DNA of 64,000 bases from Candidatus Thorarchaeota archaeon. Its GTDB lineage: Archaea; Asgardarchaeota; Thorarchaeia; Thorarchaeales; Thorarchaeaceae. Under the pieces are notes generated by a model. That model ran no database searches. It worked only from the letters and a program-made list of their open reading frames with translations, and had not been told where the DNA came from. The stretch spans positions 118,025 to 182,024 of the forward strand of contig RDNZ01000001.1 of assembly GCA_011364905.1 (NCBI GenBank), given 5' to 3'. Positions 3,651-54,230 of this stretch are shown here, one piece after another (the first letter of the stretch is position 1; each line of letters begins with the position of its first letter). The position numbers and the translations under genes were made by a program.

Positions 3651-4637
3651 ATGAATGGAAATCGAAAGATCCTTGCAGGAATTGTCGCAACGATAGTAGT
3701 TGTGGTTCTTGTCGTTGTTAGTATGAATCAAATACCTCCGCCACAGAATGCGAACCTTACGGACTTCCCCGACTTCTACACAAAGAATGAAGACTATTAC
3801 ATTACGAGAATCGATGGTGTGCCAAATGTCAATCGGGACACGTATCGACTTGAAATAACTGGCCTTGTTGATAATCCTCGTTCTTTCACTCTCGAAGAGT
3901 TGCAGGCTTTGAATCTAACCGATTTACCTCTCACCATAGAGTGTATTGGTAACACCAAAAATGGAAAACTGGTGTCCACTGCTATTTGGAGGGGATTTAA
4001 TGTCTATGATCTGTTGGATTCATTAGGAATTTCAGGAAGCGCAACGGGAGTCAAGTACACTGCTGCTGATGGGTATTATGCATCACATACTATGAACCAG
4101 CTGCAAAACAACGGTGTTCTTGGAGCACTGTATATGAACGGTGTAGAGCTACCTCCAGTTCAGGGATTTCCATTGCGAATTCTTAACCCGGGGTACTATG
4201 GGATTAAACAGCCGGCATGGGTTATTGGGATAGAGGTAATTGATACGCCTCTGGAAGACTATTGGCAAGATCGCGGATGGGACACGTCCCCACCCATAGA
4301 TATTGATTCTAAGATTTTCTTTCCTACTAGCTACGTAAGAATCAATGTGAGCGAATCCCTCAGAATCGGTGGTTGTGCGTTTGGCGGGACTCGCGTTAAG
4401 CTAGTGGAATACACAACAGACGATGGAGCAACGTGGCATAATGCGCCTATAATTCAGCAAATCGACGCAGATAACGTGTGGGTATTTTGGGAGGTTTACG
4501 TGAGTTTTTCAACAGCGGGAAGCTACTCCTTTCAGACCAGAGCAACAGACATCAATGATAATCAACAGATTCAAGTAGACCCTGACCCGCTCGACGGAAC
4601 CAGTAGCTGGCCACTTCTCATCATTGATGTGACTTAG
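3651..4637 (+). CDS. Membrane-anchored sulfite-oxidase-like molybdopterin oxidoreductase
   Basis: Molybdopterin-dependent oxidoreductase of the sulfite oxidase / YedY (MsrP) superfamily; the substrate is not predictable. An N-terminal signal anchor (residues 8-24, AGIVATIVVVVLVVVSM) places the enzyme outside the membrane. The molybdopterin domain spans ~45-210 with the family landmark LTIECIGNT, whose Cys98 is the expected molybdenum ligand, then GFPLRILNPGYYGIKQPAWVIGIEV. Residues ~225-328 match the C-terminal immunoglobulin-like dimerisation domain of sulfite oxidases (RIGGCAFGGTRVKLVEYTTDDG). Length of 328 aa is typical. No heme or membrane-subunit partner is adjacent, so its electron acceptor is unknown. 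A T/A-rich box near 3608-3616 may be its promoter. Confidence 0.88.
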   Translation: MNGNRKILAGIVATIVVVVLVVVSMNQIPPPQNANLTDFPDFYTKNEDYYITRIDGVPNVNRDTYRLEITGLVDNPRSFTLEELQALNLTDLPLTIECIGNTKNGKLVSTAIWRGFNVYDLLDSLGISGSATGVKYTAADGYYASHTMNQLQNNGVLGALYMNGVELPPVQGFPLRILNPGYYGIKQPAWVIGIEVIDTPLEDYWQDRGWDTSPPIDIDSKIFFPTSYVRINVSESLRIGGCAFGGTRVKLVEYTTDDGATWHNAPIIQQIDADNVWVFWEVYVSFSTAGSYSFQTRATDINDNQQIQVDPDPLDGTSSWPLLIIDVT

Positions 4638-45195: not shown

Positions 45196-45214
45196 ATATT
45201 ACTCGAATAAAATT

Positions 45215-45245
45215 AGAAAGGATGGAAGGAGGTGCGACCCGCGCA
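45215..45245 (-). repeat. 31-bp repeat, copy 1
   Basis: Identical over 31 bases to 46611-46641, in the same orientation. On the minus strand it lies directly after the subtilase stop and ends in T-rich sequence, so it may belong to a terminator. The similarity continues weakly into the subtilase end: CTGTAAACGAA is shared at nearly the same offset. Confidence 0.85.
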
Positions 45246-45266
45246 AGTTTGCGGTTTGTGCCAGAT

Positions 45267-46544
45267 TCAAACAGTTTCGTTTACAGTCCTTCTCCTCTTG
45301 ATTGCAATAGGTAGTACAATTAAGATAACGATGATGGGGATTGAAACTCCGACATAGATTCTGAGAGGCAATAGAGATACGCCACTATTCGTAGGTTCAC
45401 CATTAGTAGTAAGAGGATCATGATTGATGTTGGACCAATTGAGTCTGTATGAATTTGCTGAGGGAACATATTCAGCCAGATATTCCCGTGCTTTTTCAAC
45501 ATTCAATTTACCATATCCAGATTTGTCATCCCATCCTTCGTCGAGAATATCTGTTGCACCCCAGACTAAGGCATCTTCAATTTGACTATTTGATGCCCAT
45601 GGAAACTGATTCCAGAGAAGAACAGCTGAAGCCGCTGCTATTGGTGTTGAACAGGATGATCCTCCGAATGTCCCATAGGTAGCTGTTGCTTGCATGTAAG
45701 CCGGAATTCCTCCTGCAGGAGCAAGCAAGAACAATTGATTCCCATAACCGCCGTCTACATAGGACCCACTGCTATCGAACCTACCAATACCGCGAGCAAA
45801 GGGAAGAGCTGTAGGAACGTCCATGGGATGCAACGGGTACAGCACATTATCAACAGCAACAAAGAATAAGGCATTTCCACCCTCATAGAGTTCTGTAACT
45901 TTGTTTTGAAGGTCAACCAAGACTGGATCATCAAGTTCAATCCAATACAAAGTATCCAAAAAACTCATCGTGAAAACCATCTTTCCAAAACTTGAACCCC
46001 ACTCAAAAATGTCAGTCAATTGCTTCACATACGTACGACAGTACGTAAAATCATCCTCAGGATAGTTACCCCAAGACCATACACTATACAGTGGAGCATT
46101 GACTATTCCAGCTACACCTATTCCATTGTTGATTGTGGAAGCTGCGACTGATGCCACTGCAGCTTCATGTGAATTATAACTGACACTTGGATATGACAAA
46201 TATTCTGAATACTCTGCATTCCACGCAAAACTCGCTCGTTCTGTGATGTTGAGGTCTCCATTTTGGTCATCGATAATGGGCTGTCCAATGACACAGAGAC
46301 CAACTGCTCCAGGAGAATAGAAGGAATAGCCGTGGTCCCAAACACTGTGGATCTTGATAGCATCCAGATGCCAGGGATTACCTATGGGATCGTCTGGGAT
46401 GAATCCTCCTACAATAGGGCGAATACCAAATGTCGGGATTATAATCAGGAAGATTATCAAACCAACAAGAGCCATTGGCTTCGAAACACATGACTTAGAA
46501 CTTGCTTTCTCATTGCTCACAGGTCTCAACTCAGATGAAACCAA
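45267..46544 (-). CDS. Subtilase-like (S8) membrane protein lacking the usual catalytic Asp
   Basis: A 425-residue protein with the subtilisin fold. Transmembrane anchors at ~24-42 (MALVGLIIFLIIIPTFGIR) and ~395-418. The catalytic His is in SYNSHEAAVASVAAS, the oxyanion Asn in FFVAVDN and the nucleophile Ser in GGSSCSTPIAAA. The first motif, normally V-x-V-I-D-T-G, reads LCVIGQPIID, with Gly where the catalytic Asp belongs. It could be a pseudoprotease, or a nearby Asp (IIDD) might substitute. Start: TTG 46544 or ATG 46475, neither with a clear ribosome-binding site. It follows the hydrogenase operon on the same strand and is bracketed by the two copies of the 31-bp repeat. Confidence 0.82.
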   Translation of the reverse strand: MVSSELRPVSNEKASSKSCVSKPMALVGLIIFLIIIPTFGIRPIVGGFIPDDPIGNPWHLDAIKIHSVWDHGYSFYSPGAVGLCVIGQPIIDDQNGDLNITERASFAWNAEYSEYLSYPSVSYNSHEAAVASVAASTINNGIGVAGIVNAPLYSVWSWGNYPEDDFTYCRTYVKQLTDIFEWGSSFGKMVFTMSFLDTLYWIELDDPVLVDLQNKVTELYEGGNALFFVAVDNVLYPLHPMDVPTALPFARGIGRFDSSGSYVDGGYGNQLFLLAPAGGIPAYMQATATYGTFGGSSCSTPIAAASAVLLWNQFPWASNSQIEDALVWGATDILDEGWDDKSGYGKLNVEKAREYLAEYVPSANSYRLNWSNINHDPLTTNGEPTNSGVSLLPLRIYVGVSIPIIVILIVLPIAIKRRRTVNETV

Positions 46545-46610
46545 TTTGTTGCTATAGAATCAAAATTCCTTGAATTAAGAACACTCATCCCAGCAACGGA
46601 TTAGCAAAAA

Positions 46611-46641
46611 AGAAAGGATGGAAGGAGGTGCGACCCGCGCA
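46611..46641 (-). repeat. 31-bp repeat, copy 2
   Basis: Second copy of the repeat, here in the 3' region of vhuU. On the minus strand it ends in CTTTCTTTTTTG, a good archaeal-type T-rich termination signal. Confidence 0.85.
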
Positions 46642-46687
46642 CCCTTGCGGGGTGTGTCAAGCCCGGCCCGTTCGTTTACAGCCGAAC
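46627..46687 (-). promoter_or_regulatory. 3'-UTR RNA hairpins after vhuU: candidate SECIS region
   Basis: Archaeal SECIS elements lie in the 3' UTR. Directly past the vhuU stop, the minus-strand RNA can form GUUCG-(8-base loop GCUGUAAA)-CGAAC (46670-46687) and GGUGCG-CGGGU-CGCACC (46627-46643). The region is much richer in G+C than its surroundings. I could not match it confidently to the known archaeal or Lokiarchaeal SECIS consensus, so this is a location, not an identification. Confidence 0.35.
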
Positions 46688-46689
46688 CT

Positions 46690-46842
46690 TCATCCGCCGC
46701 CGGTCACTAGCTCCTTCCTGACTAACTCGCGACCCTCATCGTCTACAACGACCAGATGAGCGCCGCAGGATAGTCAGCAGTCATAACACCGAACAACCAT
46801 CTCAATGATGTTCAGTATTCCTTCAGGTATTTCGTCAGTCAT
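46690..46842 (-). CDS. vhuU: VhuU-like selenocysteine-containing hydrogenase small polypeptide (UGA read as Sec at codon 23)
   Basis: Split-off C-terminal piece of the [NiFe(Se)] hydrogenase large subunit. ATG 46842 has AGGTG six bases ahead and starts 11 bases after the vhuA stop. The frame has an internal TGA at 46774-46776 and ends at TGA 46690-46692, 50 codons. Around the internal TGA it reads VRCYDC-U-LSCGAHLVVVD, which aligns position by position with the universal C-terminal motif RxYDPCLSCATH: U falls on the first nickel-binding Cys, C26 on the second, and H29 marks the maturation-protease cleavage site. The mature piece would be 29 residues, close to the 25 of methanococcal VhuU. VhuA lacks this motif, so the enzyme needs this gene. 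Odd: Cys replaces the Pro before Sec. Confidence 0.85.
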
Positions 46843-46853
46843 AGTGTACACCT

Positions 46854-48170
46854 TTATTTTTTGACCATTGGCTCAGGGAGTTTGAGACCCTCGAGAGCCT
46901 TGTCCTCGAAAATCTGCTTAGCCGCGACCATGAGGCTCTTCTCGATACCTGCAATGTTGTTGTTTGTCGCAACCACCAGATTAGCTTTAGTAAGCATTCC
47001 TTTTTCGTCTGATACATAGTTGTGCATCAGTGTTCCTCGTGGAGCCTCAACGATACCGACACCGTTTCCAGCTTTGGGTTCAACATCCACAACCTTCACA
47101 TCAGTGTCGCAAATGTCTGGATCATTGAGGAGCTTGGCAATCCACTCGAAGGCCTGGACCATCTCCACTATCCTTGCATAGTGATATGCAAAGGTGTGAT
47201 GTGAAGGTCGACCAACCAATTCACGCATCTCCTTGAGGGCGGCATCAGCTAGCGGAGTAGCCATTCTCTCATTTACATTGCACCTTGCTAGCGTATTAGC
47301 TCTCCAAATTCCCTCTGGATATCCTGCTGGTTTGTAGTATATGTGAGTTGCGTAGCTATGGTCCGATACATACTCACCGTAGTACTTCGTGTAGTCCTTT
47401 GGCTCAAAGTCAGCTACAATCTCACCACCAGGCTCCTGCACTCGAACAGTGCCATCATAGATGTCAAGTGTTCCCTTGTTTGAAAGACCGAGGTAGTAGG
47501 TTGGCACGACAGCTACCTTTGTGATAACATCGAGATAGTCTGTGACAACCTTCTTCGCAAGGTCCACTGTGTTCAAAGTCAATTGTTGAATCTCCTCGAG
47601 TCTTCCTAGAAAGAAGTCACGGTCTTCCTCCTTCAACGATGTTAACATTCCTCCGGGAATCGCTGTTGTTGGGTGGACCGCCTTTGCTCCTACAGTCTTG
47701 ATCAGCTCCTGGCCAAACTCCATCATCTTGATGGCTTGGACTGCCACATCAGGGAGGTCTCGTAAGACTGCAGCAACGTTCCTGTCCGCAGGATTGGCAA
47801 AAGGTCCGTAGACGAAGTCTGGTGCCGCAAGAGCATAGAAGTGAATCACATGCGAGGAGAACTGCTTTGCTTCAATCATCAGTCTGCGCAACTTGACTGC
47901 AGTTGGAGTTGGTGAAACTCCCCAAGCAGCCTCAACTGCTTTCACAGATGCGAGATGATGGGGGATTGGGCAGATTCCACAGATTCTTGGTGCAATTCTA
48001 GGAGCCTCTTCCATTGGGCGACCCTCTAGAAACTTCTCAAAGAATCTTGTGGAGTTCACATTAAACTGAACGTCCTTGACCTTGCCATCCTTCCCAAGCT
48101 TCAGAGTAAGGGAACCATGTCCTTCGAGTCGAGTAACTGGATCAATTCGAATAGTCTTTTCTTCGGTCAC
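46854..48170 (-). CDS. vhuA: F420-non-reducing hydrogenase large subunit, split form (VhuA/MvhA)
   Basis: Catalytic subunit (438 aa) of a group 3c [NiFe]-hydrogenase that feeds H2 electrons to Hdr. The N-terminal metal motif RICGICPIPHHLAS provides C64 and C67. TRLEGHGS near residue 13 is also conserved. The protein stops at LPEPMVKK and has no DPCxxC motif at its C-terminus; that motif lies in the small vhuU gene downstream. It starts within the vhuG stop (ATGA overlap). Confidence 0.93.
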   Translation of the reverse strand: MTEEKTIRIDPVTRLEGHGSLTLKLGKDGKVKDVQFNVNSTRFFEKFLEGRPMEEAPRIAPRICGICPIPHHLASVKAVEAAWGVSPTPTAVKLRRLMIEAKQFSSHVIHFYALAAPDFVYGPFANPADRNVAAVLRDLPDVAVQAIKMMEFGQELIKTVGAKAVHPTTAIPGGMLTSLKEEDRDFFLGRLEEIQQLTLNTVDLAKKVVTDYLDVITKVAVVPTYYLGLSNKGTLDIYDGTVRVQEPGGEIVADFEPKDYTKYYGEYVSDHSYATHIYYKPAGYPEGIWRANTLARCNVNERMATPLADAALKEMRELVGRPSHHTFAYHYARIVEMVQAFEWIAKLLNDPDICDTDVKVVDVEPKAGNGVGIVEAPRGTLMHNYVSDEKGMLTKANLVVATNNNIAGIEKSLMVAAKQIFEDKALEGLKLPEPMVKK

Positions 48171-49090
48171 CGGGTTTTAACCTCTTCTCGCTTGATTCGT
48201 ATTTGCCCTAAGTTACTGGTAGCATAGTCGAAACGATAGAATGTCCCTAACGGGTCTTTTACTTGTTCTTTGATTTGTTCGGAGGGGAGAGGAGCGTATG
48301 TGCCAAGCATTGCCATAGAGTTGGCGCCATGATCCTGCAATATTGGAGGAGGCGGGCCAAAACAACCCCTGCAAGTGGCACCCTTATTCACGCACTGACC
48401 CTCGCATAATCCCCAAGTTGACGAACCCATGCAGATGTAGCCCTGCTCAAGAAGACATCTGTCTGGATCCGCGATTCCTTGATACGGGCGTAAGATTTTC
48501 TCAACGGGGGTCTCTTTCTTCTCACGTTCGCAGTAATGACAAACTGTATGTGGTGGAAGTTCGATAGGTTCGCCAGCAAGAAGCTTCGTAACAGCTGTGA
48601 GAATCAGTTTAGAAGTGGGGGGACAGCCGGGAAGGTAGATATCTATGTCTACAAAGCTGTTGTTAGGTTTCACCACGGGAGCAATACCAGGCAGATTCTC
48701 ACTTGGAACCTTTCCACCAGTCACAGTAGCATTCTCGCGAAACTTGACATCATAGCACTCCTCTATATCGGAAAAGTTTGCTAGACCTGGAATTCCGCCG
48801 AAGCATGAACATGAACCAAATGCAATCAGTACTTGGCATTTATCACGCAACAACTTGAGAAGGTGAATATCCTCCTCAGTCCGGGCCATTCCTTCATACA
48901 GACCGACAACTATAGATTTGTCTTCGTAACTCTCGAGGTGATGGAGTTTGAAGTCAGCCACTGCTTGCCAGTACTTTATTTCAAGAGCTGGGAGAACTTG
49001 AGCCAAATTGAGATGGATGTCCACAAGGCTTTGGAAGCAGCCCCAGCAGGAACTGCCTTGGCCCATTGCAATGGAAACAGGATCAGCCAA
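48167..49090 (-). CDS. vhuG: F420-non-reducing hydrogenase small subunit (VhuG/MvhG)
   Basis: Electron-transfer subunit (307 aa) of the hydrogenase with three iron-sulfur clusters. Cluster cysteines are in GSSCWGCF (C15, C18), GSCSCFGG, LPGCPP, CHYCERE, GYICMG and the C-terminal CEGQCVNKGATCRGCFGP. TTG 49090 is chosen because AAGGAGGT stands at the right distance; those bases also encode the last residues (KEV) of the upstream winged-helix protein. Works with VhuA, VhuU and MvhD. Confidence 0.93.
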   Translation of the reverse strand: MADPVSIAMGQGSSCWGCFQSLVDIHLNLAQVLPALEIKYWQAVADFKLHHLESYEDKSIVVGLYEGMARTEEDIHLLKLLRDKCQVLIAFGSCSCFGGIPGLANFSDIEECYDVKFRENATVTGGKVPSENLPGIAPVVKPNNSFVDIDIYLPGCPPTSKLILTAVTKLLAGEPIELPPHTVCHYCEREKKETPVEKILRPYQGIADPDRCLLEQGYICMGSSTWGLCEGQCVNKGATCRGCFGPPPPILQDHGANSMAMLGTYAPLPSEQIKEQVKDPLGTFYRFDYATSNLGQIRIKREEVKTR

Positions 49091-49092
49091 TC

Positions 49093-49335
49093 TCAGACCT
49101 CCTTCAGTGTGTAGACCATCTCGTCATTTTCTTCTCCGGTCACTTCGACTTCGCCCCAACGAAGCATCCCCAGTAGGTTCCAAACAACCAAATCAGTATC
49201 GTATTGCGTCGCCTCTGCAATCTTCGATACCGGGGCAGGTCCGCCCTTGAGGAAGTCGCCAATGGCTTTTCGTTGTTTGCGAACATCGCCTCGTTTTTGC
49301 GAGAAGAAACGTCCAAACATATTACTCAAACCCAT
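49093..49335 (-). CDS. Small winged-helix protein of Hdr operon 2
   Basis: An 80-residue paralogue of the protein at 9795 (shared core ITEIAKAT / VSKIAEAT ... NLLGMLRWGEVEV, C-terminal KEV). One winged helix fills the whole chain, after a basic N-terminus (FFSQKRGDVRKQRKAI). Position between mvhD and vhuG, inside an enzyme operon, suggests a subunit or assembly role or autoregulation. ATG 49335 overlaps the mvhD stop; ATG 49320 is an alternative. Confidence 0.75.
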   Translation of the reverse strand: MGLSNMFGRFFSQKRGDVRKQRKAIGDFLKGGPAPVSKIAEATQYDTDLVVWNLLGMLRWGEVEVTGEENDEMVYTLKEV

Positions 49336-49781
49336 TCCCTCCTTATTGGTCCAAGCTTTCGTACTTGTTCGGTGAGTGTCCTAACACCATCTGCGAAAAC
49401 CTGCGCCTCTGAGGCACTCGCCCATTGAAGCCGCACCCTACGAGGATCGACTCCAGCCTGTTCGATGGCAGTCTCCATTAGAGCCCATCGAGCCCGGGCT
49501 TTCAGATTTCCACTTGTATAATGGCAGTCACCAGGATGACACCCAGAAACAAGCACACCATCTGCGCCCATATTCAGCGCAGCCAGAATGAATTCTGGAC
49601 TTATTCGTCCTGTGCAGTTCACTCGAAGAATTCTTGCATTCGTCGGGTACTGTATCCTGCTCGTCCCTGCAAGGTCAGCACCTGCATACGAACACCAATT
49701 ACAGCAGAACGCCATAATCTTTGGTTCCCATTCTCCTTGTGAGTCCACAGTTTCAGTAGTTGATAATGACGTTGATGTCAT
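49326..49781 (-). CDS. mvhD: MvhD-type electron-transfer subunit of operon 2
   Basis: A 151-residue [2Fe-2S] protein linking hydrogenase to HdrA. Conserved FCCNWCSYAGADLAG, RVNCTGRISP and SGCHPGDCHY. The ATG at 49781 (MTSTSLSTTE) has GGAGGTGG eight bases ahead; an in-frame GTG three codons earlier overlaps that site. All expected cysteines are encoded by Cys codons, so it is not a selenoprotein, unlike VhuD of some methanogens. Confidence 0.92.
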   Translation of the reverse strand: MTSTSLSTTETVDSQGEWEPKIMAFCCNWCSYAGADLAGTSRIQYPTNARILRVNCTGRISPEFILAALNMGADGVLVSGCHPGDCHYTSGNLKARARWALMETAIEQAGVDPRRVRLQWASASEAQVFADGVRTLTEQVRKLGPIRREWV

Positions 49782-49782
49782 T

Positions 49783-51531
49783 CTATCCACCTCCTTGTAT
49801 TGATGGTGAAGGGCATAGGAATGCCTCCACCATTGTTAGAATCTGATCATCAGTTGAGTGATACATCACAATAGCGCTACTCGGACAAGCGGCAGCGCAG
49901 GTTCCACAGCCGTGACATTTTGCCTCGGTCACTACAGCTATTGGCGGATCTTTGGTTTCATCCATTGAAATCGCATTGTAAGCACAAGCAGTGAGGCATG
50001 TGTGACAGCTTGAGCAAAGCTCAGGAATGACATGTGATACAGTGGATTCAATCTCCACTTCACCCTGAGCCATTAGACCCACAGCCTTGGCAGCGGCGCC
50101 ACTAGCGTCAATGACCGATTCTGAAGCATTCTTGGCTGCTTGAGCGGCGCCTGCGATCATCACACCAGCAGTATGAGTTGTGAGTGGTGCAAGTTTGATA
50201 TGCTCTGGATTGAAGAACCCATCACCGCTTCGGGTGAGACTGAACAGATGCGAGGTCTCTTCAACATCCTCTGGAGGAATCATCGCAGATGCAAGAACCA
50301 CCATGTCAGGCTCAAACTCAAGATCCTCGTCAGCAAGAACATCGCGCCACTTTATCGTGATTTTGCTTTTCTTGACAATGACGTCAGGATATTCGTTCTG
50401 CGGGAACTTACTATAGATGACATGCTTCTGTCGAGCCATTCGATGAAACTCTTCATGCCCTTTACCATAAGTTCGAATATCCTGATACAAGACCAGTACT
50501 TCATCAACACGGTCTCTCAAATCAGCAGCTGCCTTTGCCGTGGCTGAGCAGCAGTGACGCGAACAATGTTCGTGCCCTTTAACACCTGGTTGACGAGACC
50601 CGACACAGCCGATGAAGACAACCTTCTTCACTGGCTTGCCATTACTGATTTTCAGAAGTTGTTCACTACGAGGAAGCTCCTGAAGTTCAGCCAAAGTAAG
50701 TATGTCAGGGGACTCACCATAGGAATAGTAGCCAACTGGTTTGAATGGTTCAAATCCAGTAGTCACAATCACTGCACCCACCTCATATCGTTCCTCTTTC
50801 TCAGTCTTAAGATTCTTGACAGTGACCCCGAAGTTTCCAATGTAACCATCAAACTCAGAGACCTTGCTCTCTGTGAGGATTTTGATTCGTTTGTTTTTCT
50901 TGACGTCTCGAATAAGTGGTTTGATTATATCAGCTCCGGTTTCATCAGAGGGGAAAAGATGAGTCCATTTGGCAACATTACCACCAAGCTTCGGTGTCTT
51001 TTCGACAAGCAACACATCAAATCCACGGTCTGCTATGTCTAATGATGCTCTAAGACCAGCAATACCACCGCCAACCACCAGAGTTGTAGGAAGAACATTG
51101 ACCTTTTTTATCGGCAGATTTTGTAGCTTAGATGCACGCGCAACAGACATTCTTACGAGGTCTATAGCTTTCTCTGTCGCAAGTTCTGGTTCTCTCATGT
51201 GGCACCAAGATACATGTTCCCGAAGGTTGACCTGGTCAAACAGATACCTATTGAGGCCTGCCTCCTCCACAACTCGACGGAACGTGGGCTCATGCATACG
51301 AGGCGAGCAGCTGGCAACAACAACTCGGTTGAGATTATGTTCTTTGATCTTCTCTTTGATGAGCGTCTGCCCAGCATCCGAGCACATGAACATCTCATCT
51401 GCTGCAAAAGCAACACCTGGCAGATTCGATGCCATATGCGCCACTGCTTCAACATCAACAGTACCAGCTATGTTGTGCCCACAGTGACAGACAAACACTC
51501 CGATTCTTGGTTCATCTTCTGTTCCTGACAT
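49783..51531 (-). CDS. hdrA: HdrA-like flavoprotein with terminal ferredoxins, operon 2
   Basis: A 582-residue HdrA-family protein and close paralogue of 10139-11890. N-terminal domain VFVCHCGHNIAG with SCSPRMHEPTFRRV; FAD site GGGIAG (~150); GCVGSRQPGVKGHEHCSRHCC; two C-terminal [4Fe-4S] motifs, CSSCHTCLTACA and [12 protein letters not shown]. The internal CSAC pair and internal ferredoxin are missing and are found in the preceding gene instead. ATG 51531 follows that gene by four bases, with GGAGG at its stop. Confidence 0.92.
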   Translation of the reverse strand: MSGTEDEPRIGVFVCHCGHNIAGTVDVEAVAHMASNLPGVAFAADEMFMCSDAGQTLIKEKIKEHNLNRVVVASCSPRMHEPTFRRVVEEAGLNRYLFDQVNLREHVSWCHMREPELATEKAIDLVRMSVARASKLQNLPIKKVNVLPTTLVVGGGIAGLRASLDIADRGFDVLLVEKTPKLGGNVAKWTHLFPSDETGADIIKPLIRDVKKNKRIKILTESKVSEFDGYIGNFGVTVKNLKTEKEERYEVGAVIVTTGFEPFKPVGYYSYGESPDILTLAELQELPRSEQLLKISNGKPVKKVVFIGCVGSRQPGVKGHEHCSRHCCSATAKAAADLRDRVDEVLVLYQDIRTYGKGHEEFHRMARQKHVIYSKFPQNEYPDVIVKKSKITIKWRDVLADEDLEFEPDMVVLASAMIPPEDVEETSHLFSLTRSGDGFFNPEHIKLAPLTTHTAGVMIAGAAQAAKNASESVIDASGAAAKAVGLMAQGEVEIESTVSHVIPELCSSCHTCLTACAYNAISMDETKDPPIAVVTEAKCHGCGTCAAACPSSAIVMYHSTDDQILTMVEAFLCPSPSIQGGG

Positions 51532-51535
51532 TATG

Positions 51536-52834
51536 TTATGTTCCTCCACTGGATAGGATGATGGTGGCTTTCATTGCAGCTGCGCTGCCAGCAGATACTG
51601 AATCTGGGATATCTTTTGGTCCATCAGCACATCCGCAAACAAAAACGCCTGGGATCTTTGTGATAGTTGGACCGAAGAAAGTGTGACTGATTTCGATGTA
51701 ACCATCATTCGTCTGGTCTATACCTATCTTCTTGGCCATCGTGTCCATTCCACTTGAAGGAATTACACCTGGACTGATGACCACAAGGTCATGTTCAATA
51801 AGTCGAAGTTTGGAAGTGGCTGTGTCCTCAACCTTCACAACAAGGTCGTGAGAACTCTTTCCTTCCATAACCTCCGCAACACGACCTCTCACAAAACGAA
51901 CGCCAAAACGACTCTTGGCCATTTCATAGAATTCCTCAAAGCCTTTACCAAAAGCTCGTATATCTGCATAGTAAACCCAAACTTCCGCTTCGGGATTATG
52001 TTCAAGAGCCATTACAGCATTTTTTATCGAATACATGCAGCATACCCGACTACAGTATGGAACGCCTTTCTGAACATCTCGTGCGCCAACACATTGAATG
52101 AAACCTATTGACTTGGGCTTCTTTCCATCGCTGAGACGAATAAGATGTCCGTGTGTCGGACCAGCTGCGTTGATTAATCGTTCGAATTCCATCGCATGAA
52201 TGACATTGGGGTACTGTCCATACCCAAGACGTGGATACCTTGATACATCGAAGAGTTCAAATCCTGTGGCAATGATGATAGTACCGACATCGAGATTGAC
52301 AAAACTGTCTTTCATCTCCAAGTCAATTGCATTTCTTTCGCAGACTTTCACACATCTGCTGCAATCTATGCAATTCTCCTTGTCAACCGTATATACATTG
52401 GGTGTAGCCTGTGGAAACGGTGTGTAAATTGCTTTTCTAAAACCCAGACCTTGATCAAACTCGTTCGCTACTTCAACAGGACATTCAGCAGAACAGGCAC
52501 CACAACCAGAGCAAAGATTCTCTCTTACAAATCGAGCTTTTCTTCTTAGTTTGACCCTGAAGTTACCTGCAGAACCGGTTACACTCCCAACTTCAGCACA
52601 TGTCATCAAACGTATGTTTGGGTGCCTAGCAATCTCGCTCAACTTCGGAGTCAATATGCAAGCGCTGCAATCAAGGGTTGGAAAAGTCTTGTCTAGCATT
52701 GCCATGCGTCCACCAATTGAAGGAGACCGTTCAACCAGGTAAACCTTGAACCCCTGATTTGCAATATCTAAAGCAGCTTGCATTCCAGCAACGCCACCAC
52801 CTACAACAAGTGCTCTTGCTGTTTCTTTGCTCAT
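51536..52834 (-). CDS. hdrA: HdrA core flavoprotein, operon 2
   Basis: A 432-residue HdrA core: FAD site GGGVAG (~12-17), LDCSACILTP, ferredoxin CSGCGACSAECP, second ferredoxin CIDCSRCVKVCE and VGARDVQKGVPYCSRVCC. It is almost collinear with the HdrA part of the fusion at 54251, e.g. FDQGLGFRKAIYTPFPQATP is identical in both, which shows where the GltD module was inserted there. AGGAGC stands upstream of the ATG. Confidence 0.92.
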   Translation of the reverse strand: MSKETARALVVGGGVAGMQAALDIANQGFKVYLVERSPSIGGRMAMLDKTFPTLDCSACILTPKLSEIARHPNIRLMTCAEVGSVTGSAGNFRVKLRRKARFVRENLCSGCGACSAECPVEVANEFDQGLGFRKAIYTPFPQATPNVYTVDKENCIDCSRCVKVCERNAIDLEMKDSFVNLDVGTIIIATGFELFDVSRYPRLGYGQYPNVIHAMEFERLINAAGPTHGHLIRLSDGKKPKSIGFIQCVGARDVQKGVPYCSRVCCMYSIKNAVMALEHNPEAEVWVYYADIRAFGKGFEEFYEMAKSRFGVRFVRGRVAEVMEGKSSHDLVVKVEDTATSKLRLIEHDLVVISPGVIPSSGMDTMAKKIGIDQTNDGYIEISHTFFGPTITKIPGVFVCGCADGPKDIPDSVSAGSAAAMKATIILSSGGT

Positions 52835-52845
52835 TTCATTTGCTC

Positions 52846-53712
52846 CTAATGTGCTTCTAGAATTGCCTGTGGACTAATCTTGTTCAGTTGTATGCCTAAC
52901 GATTCAGAATCAATCCCAATTGCAGGACCCAAGAGCTGAGGTAGTGTCATGCACGGGATCTTAGGCTTGTCTGAGGCGCCTTCACCGAACTGAACTTGCG
53001 TCAATTGAATATCACAGAATACACAGGCAGTGACAATTCCATCAGCATTCTCTGCTCTGATATTCTCAATCTTGTCACGACCTATTGCATTTCCAACTTC
53101 ATCATCCATGGCCAGAAGTGGTCCACCACAACAACGAGTCTTTCCAGTATAGTCGACGGGGGTTCCACCTACAGCCTCGATTATACGATCAATGATAGTA
53201 GGATTTTCAGCGTCATCAACTTGGACAATCTCCTCGGGTCTAGTAACATGGCATCCATAGTGCGCTGCTAACCGAAGATCCTTGTAGGGATTGACAACCG
53301 CCGACTTGATGGCGTCATAGCCAATATCTTCACGGAAGACTTGAAGTAGATGCTTGACCTGCACGGTGCCGGTGTACTTCAGACCCTCCTCTTCCAGGAT
53401 ATCGTTGACTTCATTACGAAGCTCTTCATTACTATCAAGATCGTGCTTGACATGCTTGAGAGATCCTGAACACGCTCCGCATATTGCTAGTATGTCCAAA
53501 TCCATGCTCTCAGCAAGAGCGAGAATCCTGCCACACATTGCTGAAAACGCAGTGTGACTCACCGACTCAATGTACTGAGCCCCGCAACAGTTTGCGTCTT
53601 TCATTGTTGTAAGCTTGATACCAAGTTTCTCCAGAACTACGTGCACTGCTCTCTCATACGCAGGCAACCGAACGGGTGTGGTGCATCCTGTATAGAGAAC
53701 GAATTCTTTCAT
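52846..53712 (-). CDS. hdrB: HdrB-like subunit, operon 2
   Basis: A 288-residue HdrB with two complete CCG domains (YTGCTTPVRLPAYE, ANCCGAQYIE, CGAC; YGCHVTRP, TRCCGGPLLAMDD, CVFC). It contains the non-cubane clusters of the thiol/disulfide active site. Its start overlaps the hdrC stop (ATGA). Nearest relative in the window is 18479-19357. Confidence 0.92.
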   Translation of the reverse strand: MKEFVLYTGCTTPVRLPAYERAVHVVLEKLGIKLTTMKDANCCGAQYIESVSHTAFSAMCGRILALAESMDLDILAICGACSGSLKHVKHDLDSNEELRNEVNDILEEEGLKYTGTVQVKHLLQVFREDIGYDAIKSAVVNPYKDLRLAAHYGCHVTRPEEIVQVDDAENPTIIDRIIEAVGGTPVDYTGKTRCCGGPLLAMDDEVGNAIGRDKIENIRAENADGIVTACVFCDIQLTQVQFGEGASDKPKIPCMTLPQLLGPAIGIDSESLGIQLNKISPQAILEAH

Positions 53713-54230
53713 ACTTCAATGCCTCCCTTGAAGTATCTTTTCTTAATCTTCTTGACAAACTCAGTATTCCATCCGAGGTCTGCGTCTAGTCCCAAATCAG
53801 AGCGATCATCTTCCTCAAAATCTGTGTATGAGTCATTTAGCATCCAACCATCTTCAAGCACTTTATCGATTGCGTTCTGAAAGACAGCAGGGATGTAACC
53901 TTCGCGAGCAGCAATCTCACGAACAGCAGTGAATATGTCCGTGGGGTCAACATCTTCCTGACAACGCTCCTCACAGAGTCTGCAGGTCATACATAACCAG
54001 GGTAGCTCGCTAGTAAGCACTTCCTCTCTTTTCCCAAGGAGTATCTTCTGTATGAGCTTTCTTGGCCGATATCTATCAGTCATGTTCGCGACCATGCATG
54101 AGGCAGTACACATTCCACATTGAATACAATGCATTATGCCTGATCCACCAGGTTCCAGCTCAATTTCCTTGGCAAAGCTTGAACTTGGCTCATGATAGGC
54201 AGGCAATTCGGTATTTACATGTTCAGTCAT
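53709..54230 (-). CDS. hdrC: HdrC-like subunit, operon 2
   Basis: A 173-residue HdrC with [4Fe-4S] motifs CIQCGMCTASC (~35-45) and CMTCRLCEERC (~80-90) and the tail GWMLNDSYTDFEEDDRSDLGL shared with the first hdrC of operon 1. GGTGA lies four bases before the ATG. It carries electrons between HdrA and HdrB. Confidence 0.92.
   Translation of the reverse strand: MTEHVNTELPAYHEPSSSFAKEIELEPGGSGIMHCIQCGMCTASCMVANMTDRYRPRKLIQKILLGKREEVLTSELPWLCMTCRLCEERCQEDVDPTDIFTAVREIAAREGYIPAVFQNAIDKVLEDGWMLNDSYTDFEEDDRSDLGLDADLGWNTEFVKKIKKRYFKGGIEV

Follow-up and report, generated by a model that had tools for sequence, protein, structure and literature searches.

Does the in-frame TGA in a short reading frame behind a hydrogenase gene of a Thorarchaeote encode an amino acid, and if so, which signals would direct its decoding? 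The locus lies in a window of 64,000 nt from Candidatus Thorarchaeota archaeon (GCA_011364905.1, contig RDNZ01000001.1, positions 118,025 to 182,024), where vhuA, encoding a [NiFe] hydrogenase large subunit, is followed by the short frame vhuU. We consider it very probable (about 94%) that this frame encodes the VhuU selenoprotein subunit carrying the second CxxC motif, and that its UGA is read as selenocysteine (Sec) via SelB, tRNA-Sec and a SECIS element folded as a three-way junction. The gene, its signals and its hydrogenase and Hdr neighbours are as follows.

46690..46842, minus strand: vhuU, 50 codons including UGA (Sec), then a TGA stop
46842-46840, minus strand: start codon ATG of vhuU
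46774..46776, minus strand: in-frame TGA, the Sec codon, at the Ni-binding Cys position (37/37 loci)
46692-46690, minus strand: stop codon TGA of vhuU
46849..46853, minus strand: AGGTG, resembling a ribosome-binding site, 6 nt ahead of the vhuU ATG
46856-46854, minus strand: stop codon of VhuA
46854..48170, minus strand: vhuA, [NiFe] hydrogenase large subunit without C-terminal CxxC (NCBIfam VhuA)
48167..49090, minus strand: vhuG/mvhG, hydrogenase small subunit
49326..49790, minus strand: mvhD/vhuD (FlpD), a frame without internal TGA
49783..52834, minus strand: two hdrA genes (49783-51549, 51536-52834), frames without internal TGA
52846..54230, minus strand: hdrB and hdrC

VhuA is 96% identical to that of SMTZ1-45, the nearest named relative, and matches the NCBIfam VhuA model nearly end to end (positions 4-417 of 418). 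It lacks the C-terminal CxxC, as an earlier note on this DNA had stated, and the 50-codon frame that the note described, beginning 11 nt past vhuA with its own AGGTG site, is indeed present. As expected of VhuU, it is a separate short frame adjoining a VhuA without the C-terminal motif. Its product would be MTDEIPEGILNIIEMVVRCYDC-U-LSCGAHLVVVDDEGRELVRKELVTGGG; with TGA read as U, the translated frame opens with TMTDEIPEG, contains YDCULSCGAH and closes with VTGGG before the TGA. With C in place of U, the frame matches the NCBIfam VhuU model (NF041786; E 6.8e-14) at 51.4 bits, below the model cut-off of 70. The frames upstream of the vhuA-vhuU pair (vhuG, mvhD, the two hdrA, hdrB and hdrC) contain no internal TGA. 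The residue ahead of Sec is Cys (YDCU or FDCU) in all Asgard VhuU examined (46774-46779 here), so that Cys and Sec adjoin each other at the nickel site, where most [NiFe] large subunits have Pro-Cys.

Loci of relatives were gathered via VhuA, and 37 distinct loci of Thorarchaeota and Lokiarchaeota have the vhuU frame. The earlier note had placed the TGA at 46774-46776 on the nickel-site Cys and proposed aligning UGA against Cys codons in related genomes; the Sec codon is TGA in 37/37 of these loci and TGC or TGT in 0. For 34 of the 37, whose vhuU frames are of equal length, codon periodicity could be compared. Pairwise differences at the three codon positions are.165/.036/.431 before the UGA,.206/.133/.386 from the UGA to the stop, and.56/.59/.58 past the terminal TGA, where the periodicity is gone. 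The third-position bias persists beyond the UGA; therefore the 27 codons after it, over which the note had seen the frame stay open, are translated. This periodicity is direct evidence of selection on a protein whose translation passes the UGA and ends at the second TGA. It also speaks strongly against a genuine stop, or an error of sequencing, in a decayed or misread gene. TGA is an ordinary stop codon in this organism and errors do occur in MAG assemblies, yet the codon recurs in place at 37 independent loci, periodicity continues past it, and both the SECIS and the decoding machinery are intact, which makes a stop or an error very improbable. A general reassignment of UGA to Trp or Cys in this organism, operating without a SECIS, is more improbable still: SelD, another long frame, has a TGA too, but UGA terminates many genes in the window, vhuU included, the position concerned is that of the active-site Cys/Sec, the genome has the Sec machinery together with a SECIS, and no in-frame TGA happened to be noticed in its ordinary conserved genes.

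The possibility that the terminal TGA encodes another Sec was considered and ruled out, because periodicity stops there and one locus (L080, about 4420-4600, Harpocratesius of the Lokiarchaeota) has TAA instead. That locus keeps the Sec UGA and has no AUGA at its stop, so its SECIS must differ or be located elsewhere.

The genome encodes the full archaeal/eukaryotic Sec gene set (tRNA-Sec, PSTK, SepSecS, SelB and SelD), which the earlier note had listed as a check. The tRNA-Sec with anticodon tca (UCA; 58 bits, over cut-off), PSTK (E 1.5e-39; 136 bits against a curated cut-off of 290, adjoining the other Sec genes), SepSecS (454 bits) and SelB (281 bits, over cut-off) are clustered within about 4.3 kb of one contig (C16:14394-18674). 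SelD (211 bits; L008, G000:C57:75214-76023) has one in-frame TGA, giving VTSHGUSCK. The stop UGA of selD also sits within an AUGA, and its minimum-energy fold likewise forms three arms, the outer stem of the junction falling within the coding sequence, although this single-sequence fold is not significant against shuffles. The note's picture of a Sec-making archaeon with a split [NiFeSe] hydrogenase thus gains support from the machinery and from the conservation of the UGA, which together predict Sec insertion. The Lokiarchaeota that it cited for their selenoproteins do keep the UGA at their own loci; the organism, however, is a Thorarchaeote.

The earlier note did not remark on a SECIS at the vhuU stop codon, whose parts are these.

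46630..46707, minus strand: predicted three-way-junction SECIS spanning the vhuU end and stop codon (covariation; model R1, 107 bits)
46698..46707, minus strand: outer stem P1, 5' strand GTGACCGGCG, within vhuU codons (92.5% of cells paired, 5/10 pairs double-changed)
46690..46693, minus strand: SECIS core AUGA, whose UGA is the vhuU stop (invariant in 31 Thorarchaeota sequences)
46660..46688, minus strand: hairpin P2 with GUAAAC apical loop (6/8 pairs double-changed)
46657..46658, minus strand: SECIS core GA, 3' half of the quartet
46641..46653, minus strand: extra hairpin P3, ACCC-CGCAA-GGGT (98% of cells paired)
46630..46639, minus strand: outer stem P1, 3' strand CGCGGGTCGC (covariation)
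46606..46629, minus strand: conserved, terminator-like pyrimidine-rich tract ACCTCCTTCCATCCTTTCTTTTTT past the SECIS

RNAalifold, run on 31 Thorarchaeota sequences, returned the junction with all three helices unprompted. Across the whole junction 94.3% of 680 cells are paired, 12/22 pairs show double changes, and the covariation score is reached by 0/500 shuffles. The AUGA...GA core of type I eukaryotic SECIS elements is invariant in the 31 sequences, and P2, with 8 pairs (6 of them double-changed) and a loop containing AAA, agrees with the type I upper stem (7-15 bp) and apical loop (8-20 nt, unpaired A's); the P3 loop is YGCAA. Single-sequence folds have unexceptional energies (z about -0.4 to -1.7), and the structural case for the junction rests on covariation. 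VhuU loci of Lokiarchaeota fit the model built from Thorarchaeota as well, more weakly. A short lower stem of three bases beside the AUGA, in which 62% of cells pair and one pair never forms, was rejected, and the misleading structure given by a single-sequence fold of a shorter SECIS window was corrected by the alignment. Rfam returned nothing convincing across 45-47 kb.

What has been observed is the conserved frame, the genes for the machinery and the covariation of the RNA; from these we infer the following course of events. The 3' SECIS would direct SelB and Sec-tRNA-Sec to the UGA at 46774-46776, where Sec would be inserted. The terminal UGA would both end translation and form the AUGA of the SECIS core, perhaps acting as a stop because it is buried in that core. 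VhuU would then give VhuA its second pair of nickel ligands, and the two would assemble into the [NiFeSe] site of a Vhu-Hdr complex, feeding the Hdr part. Judging by other [NiFe] large subunits, a maturation protease probably cuts off the tail past CGAH; its removal would explain why the tail codons can double as an RNA stem.

As a hidden gene, vhuU had been overrated in its novelty, since the parts of PMC11227280 cited here already report VhuU/FrhA selenoproteins with a eukaryote-like SECIS for Asgard archaea including Thorarchaeia, PMC11291895 describes Asgard VhuU of ~50 aa, and an NCBI VhuU model exists. The vhuU studied here is a further member of this published family. As described in those parts, Asgard FrhA/MvhA/VhuU likewise carry Sec at the nickel site in a split-off subunit of ~50 aa, with a eukaryote-like type I SECIS; the Thorarchaeia frhA SECIS has a GUAAA apical loop, and in Lokiarchaeia the stop UGA overlaps the AUGA (PMC11227280). 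The frhA lower stem, [U/C]GG_C[C/U][A/G] (Huang et al., in PMC11227280), matches part of the vhuU outer stem P1. P3, the ~10-bp outer stem formed from vhuU codons and the repeats behind vhuU go unmentioned in the main-text parts of the same paper cited here. The element shares with type I eukaryotic SECIS the AUGA/GA core, the upper stem and the unpaired apical A's, and differs in its extra internal-loop hairpin and in overlapping the end of the coding sequence. In methanococci the SECIS belongs to the GAA_A type. Methanococcal VhuU (NF041786) is likewise a separate selenopolypeptide beside a VhuA without the C-terminal motif, whereas here the tail after the motif is longer and the score falls below the model cut-off. 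We found no description of a three-way-junction or orphan SECIS in the literature searched. What is newly seen here is the third arm of the vhuU SECIS, together with the small-gene insertions behind vhuU; the junction detail is a refinement, and the insertion-site and cysS observations treated below are leads. Conservation and RNA evidence together back a gene that standard annotation is likely to truncate or miss, and the expectation of the earlier note that gene callers would overlook it is plausible.

Downstream of vhuU the end of the gene occurs a second time.

45209..45284, minus strand: decayed second copy of the vhuU 3' end and SECIS, a direct repeat
45267..46544, minus strand: subtilase (S8) gene between the two copies (Pfam PF00082)

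Counting the window, 11 of about 25 Thorarchaeota loci carry 24 extra copies of the vhuU 3' end in all (45209-45284 here, and L094, L095, L097, L098, L100-L103, L114 and L121), every one on the vhuU strand and at distances of up to 10 kb. Between the repeats lie genes for a DUF6036 nucleotidyltransferase, MNT/HepT pairs, DUF433/DUF5615 pairs, an OB-fold protein, the subtilase and membrane proteins, many of the small ones of toxin-antitoxin type. The OB-fold gene is also found directly downstream of vhuU in a locus without repeats (G016), and may therefore be a long-standing neighbour and not cargo.

We see about even odds that small cassettes insert repeatedly at the vhuU 3' end. Each newcomer would restore this end and the SECIS, and the displaced copy would persist as a direct repeat, much as at tRNA genes. 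The number, spread and uniform strand of the extra copies favour this, as do two further near-intact copies of 138-152 nt in one genome (G015), whose vhuU codons begin at GATGAGGATCGCGAG or shortly after. Across 16 genomes of the genus, most low-mismatch matches to the repeat core fall on contigs that carry vhuU or that bear the same genes as cargo or flank. One pair shows a clear exchange of cargo: the window and G005 have a common left flank up to the SECIS end and a common right flank that starts within the final repeat, so that homology breaks off and resumes within repeats, and the genes between are unrelated. In two genomes the SECIS segment is mosaic: by vhuA they belong to one clade and by SECIS to another, with the switch inside the vhuU 3' end; their SECIS segments are 93% (G010) and 92% (G007) identical to the other clade, against about 70% upstream. 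On the other side, no recombinase was recognised among the cargo frames scanned, most remnants measure just 25-60 nt, and the arrays are limited to genus g1 plus G041 and G031, with none in the close relative G036. The main rival to insertion is a local terminator family, in which the short repeats would be a lineage-specific hairpin and pyrimidine tract reused nearby by duplication. Many remnants do hold a GTGCG-n5-CGCAC inverted repeat and a CTCCTTCCATCCTTTC tract directly past a gene, but close matches are rare outside the vhuU region and the copies in G015 and G007 contain vhuU codons and the SECIS; we judge this origin rather unlikely. A pattern search for the repeats as genome-wide terminators gave no support.

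Recurrent insertion at vhuU would resemble integration at tRNA-gene 3' ends and integron arrays, where the host gene end is likewise re-created, direct repeats separate small cargo genes and toxin-antitoxin-type cargo is prominent (archaeal integrons, in the part of PMC9668308 cited here). It would differ in that the repeats derive from a selenoprotein gene and that no integrase was identified in the cargo scanned. If insertion is the correct reading, mobile DNA targets a site that also serves as a signal in translation, and excised cassette circles would be joined at GATGAGGGTCGCGAG.

A SECIS-like element also occurs 3' of cysS, where the model built on vhuU finds it in 9/30 Thorarchaeota cysS loci (L172, L173, L174, L176, L177, L178, L179, L183 and L189); it is absent from the cysS locus of this genome (L184) and from the other cysS loci fetched. 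Its AUGA, AAAG and GAC core is invariant in 9/9, and a separate fold of the nine elements gives the same three-way junction, with 14/21 pairs double-changed. The CysRS frames of these loci contain no in-frame TGA, and no selenoprotein partner was seen upstream or downstream of the element in four to six genomes. Both the kinship of this RNA with the SECIS and repeated insertion behind vhuU are what we infer from these patterns. As far as the literature searched goes, the element would be a SECIS retained without a UGA to decode. Taken as one scenario, in which the vhuU 3' end with its SECIS is a recurrent insertion site for toxin-antitoxin-like cassettes in Thorarchaeota, each insertion swaps the SECIS so that this decoding RNA moves along with mobile DNA, and the SECIS has also settled behind cysS under selection, the proposal is tentative, with the odds somewhat against it.

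Two further observations concern vhuA. Some VhuA paralogues, with identities of about 66-71% (L066, L068, L069, L070, L072, L085 and L086), form a second group that has no vhuU frame directly downstream, and its members may use VhuU from the other locus. One genome (L108, G018:C29:57000-75000) has two VhuA-VhuU pairs ~9 kb apart, one of them with a divergent SECIS.
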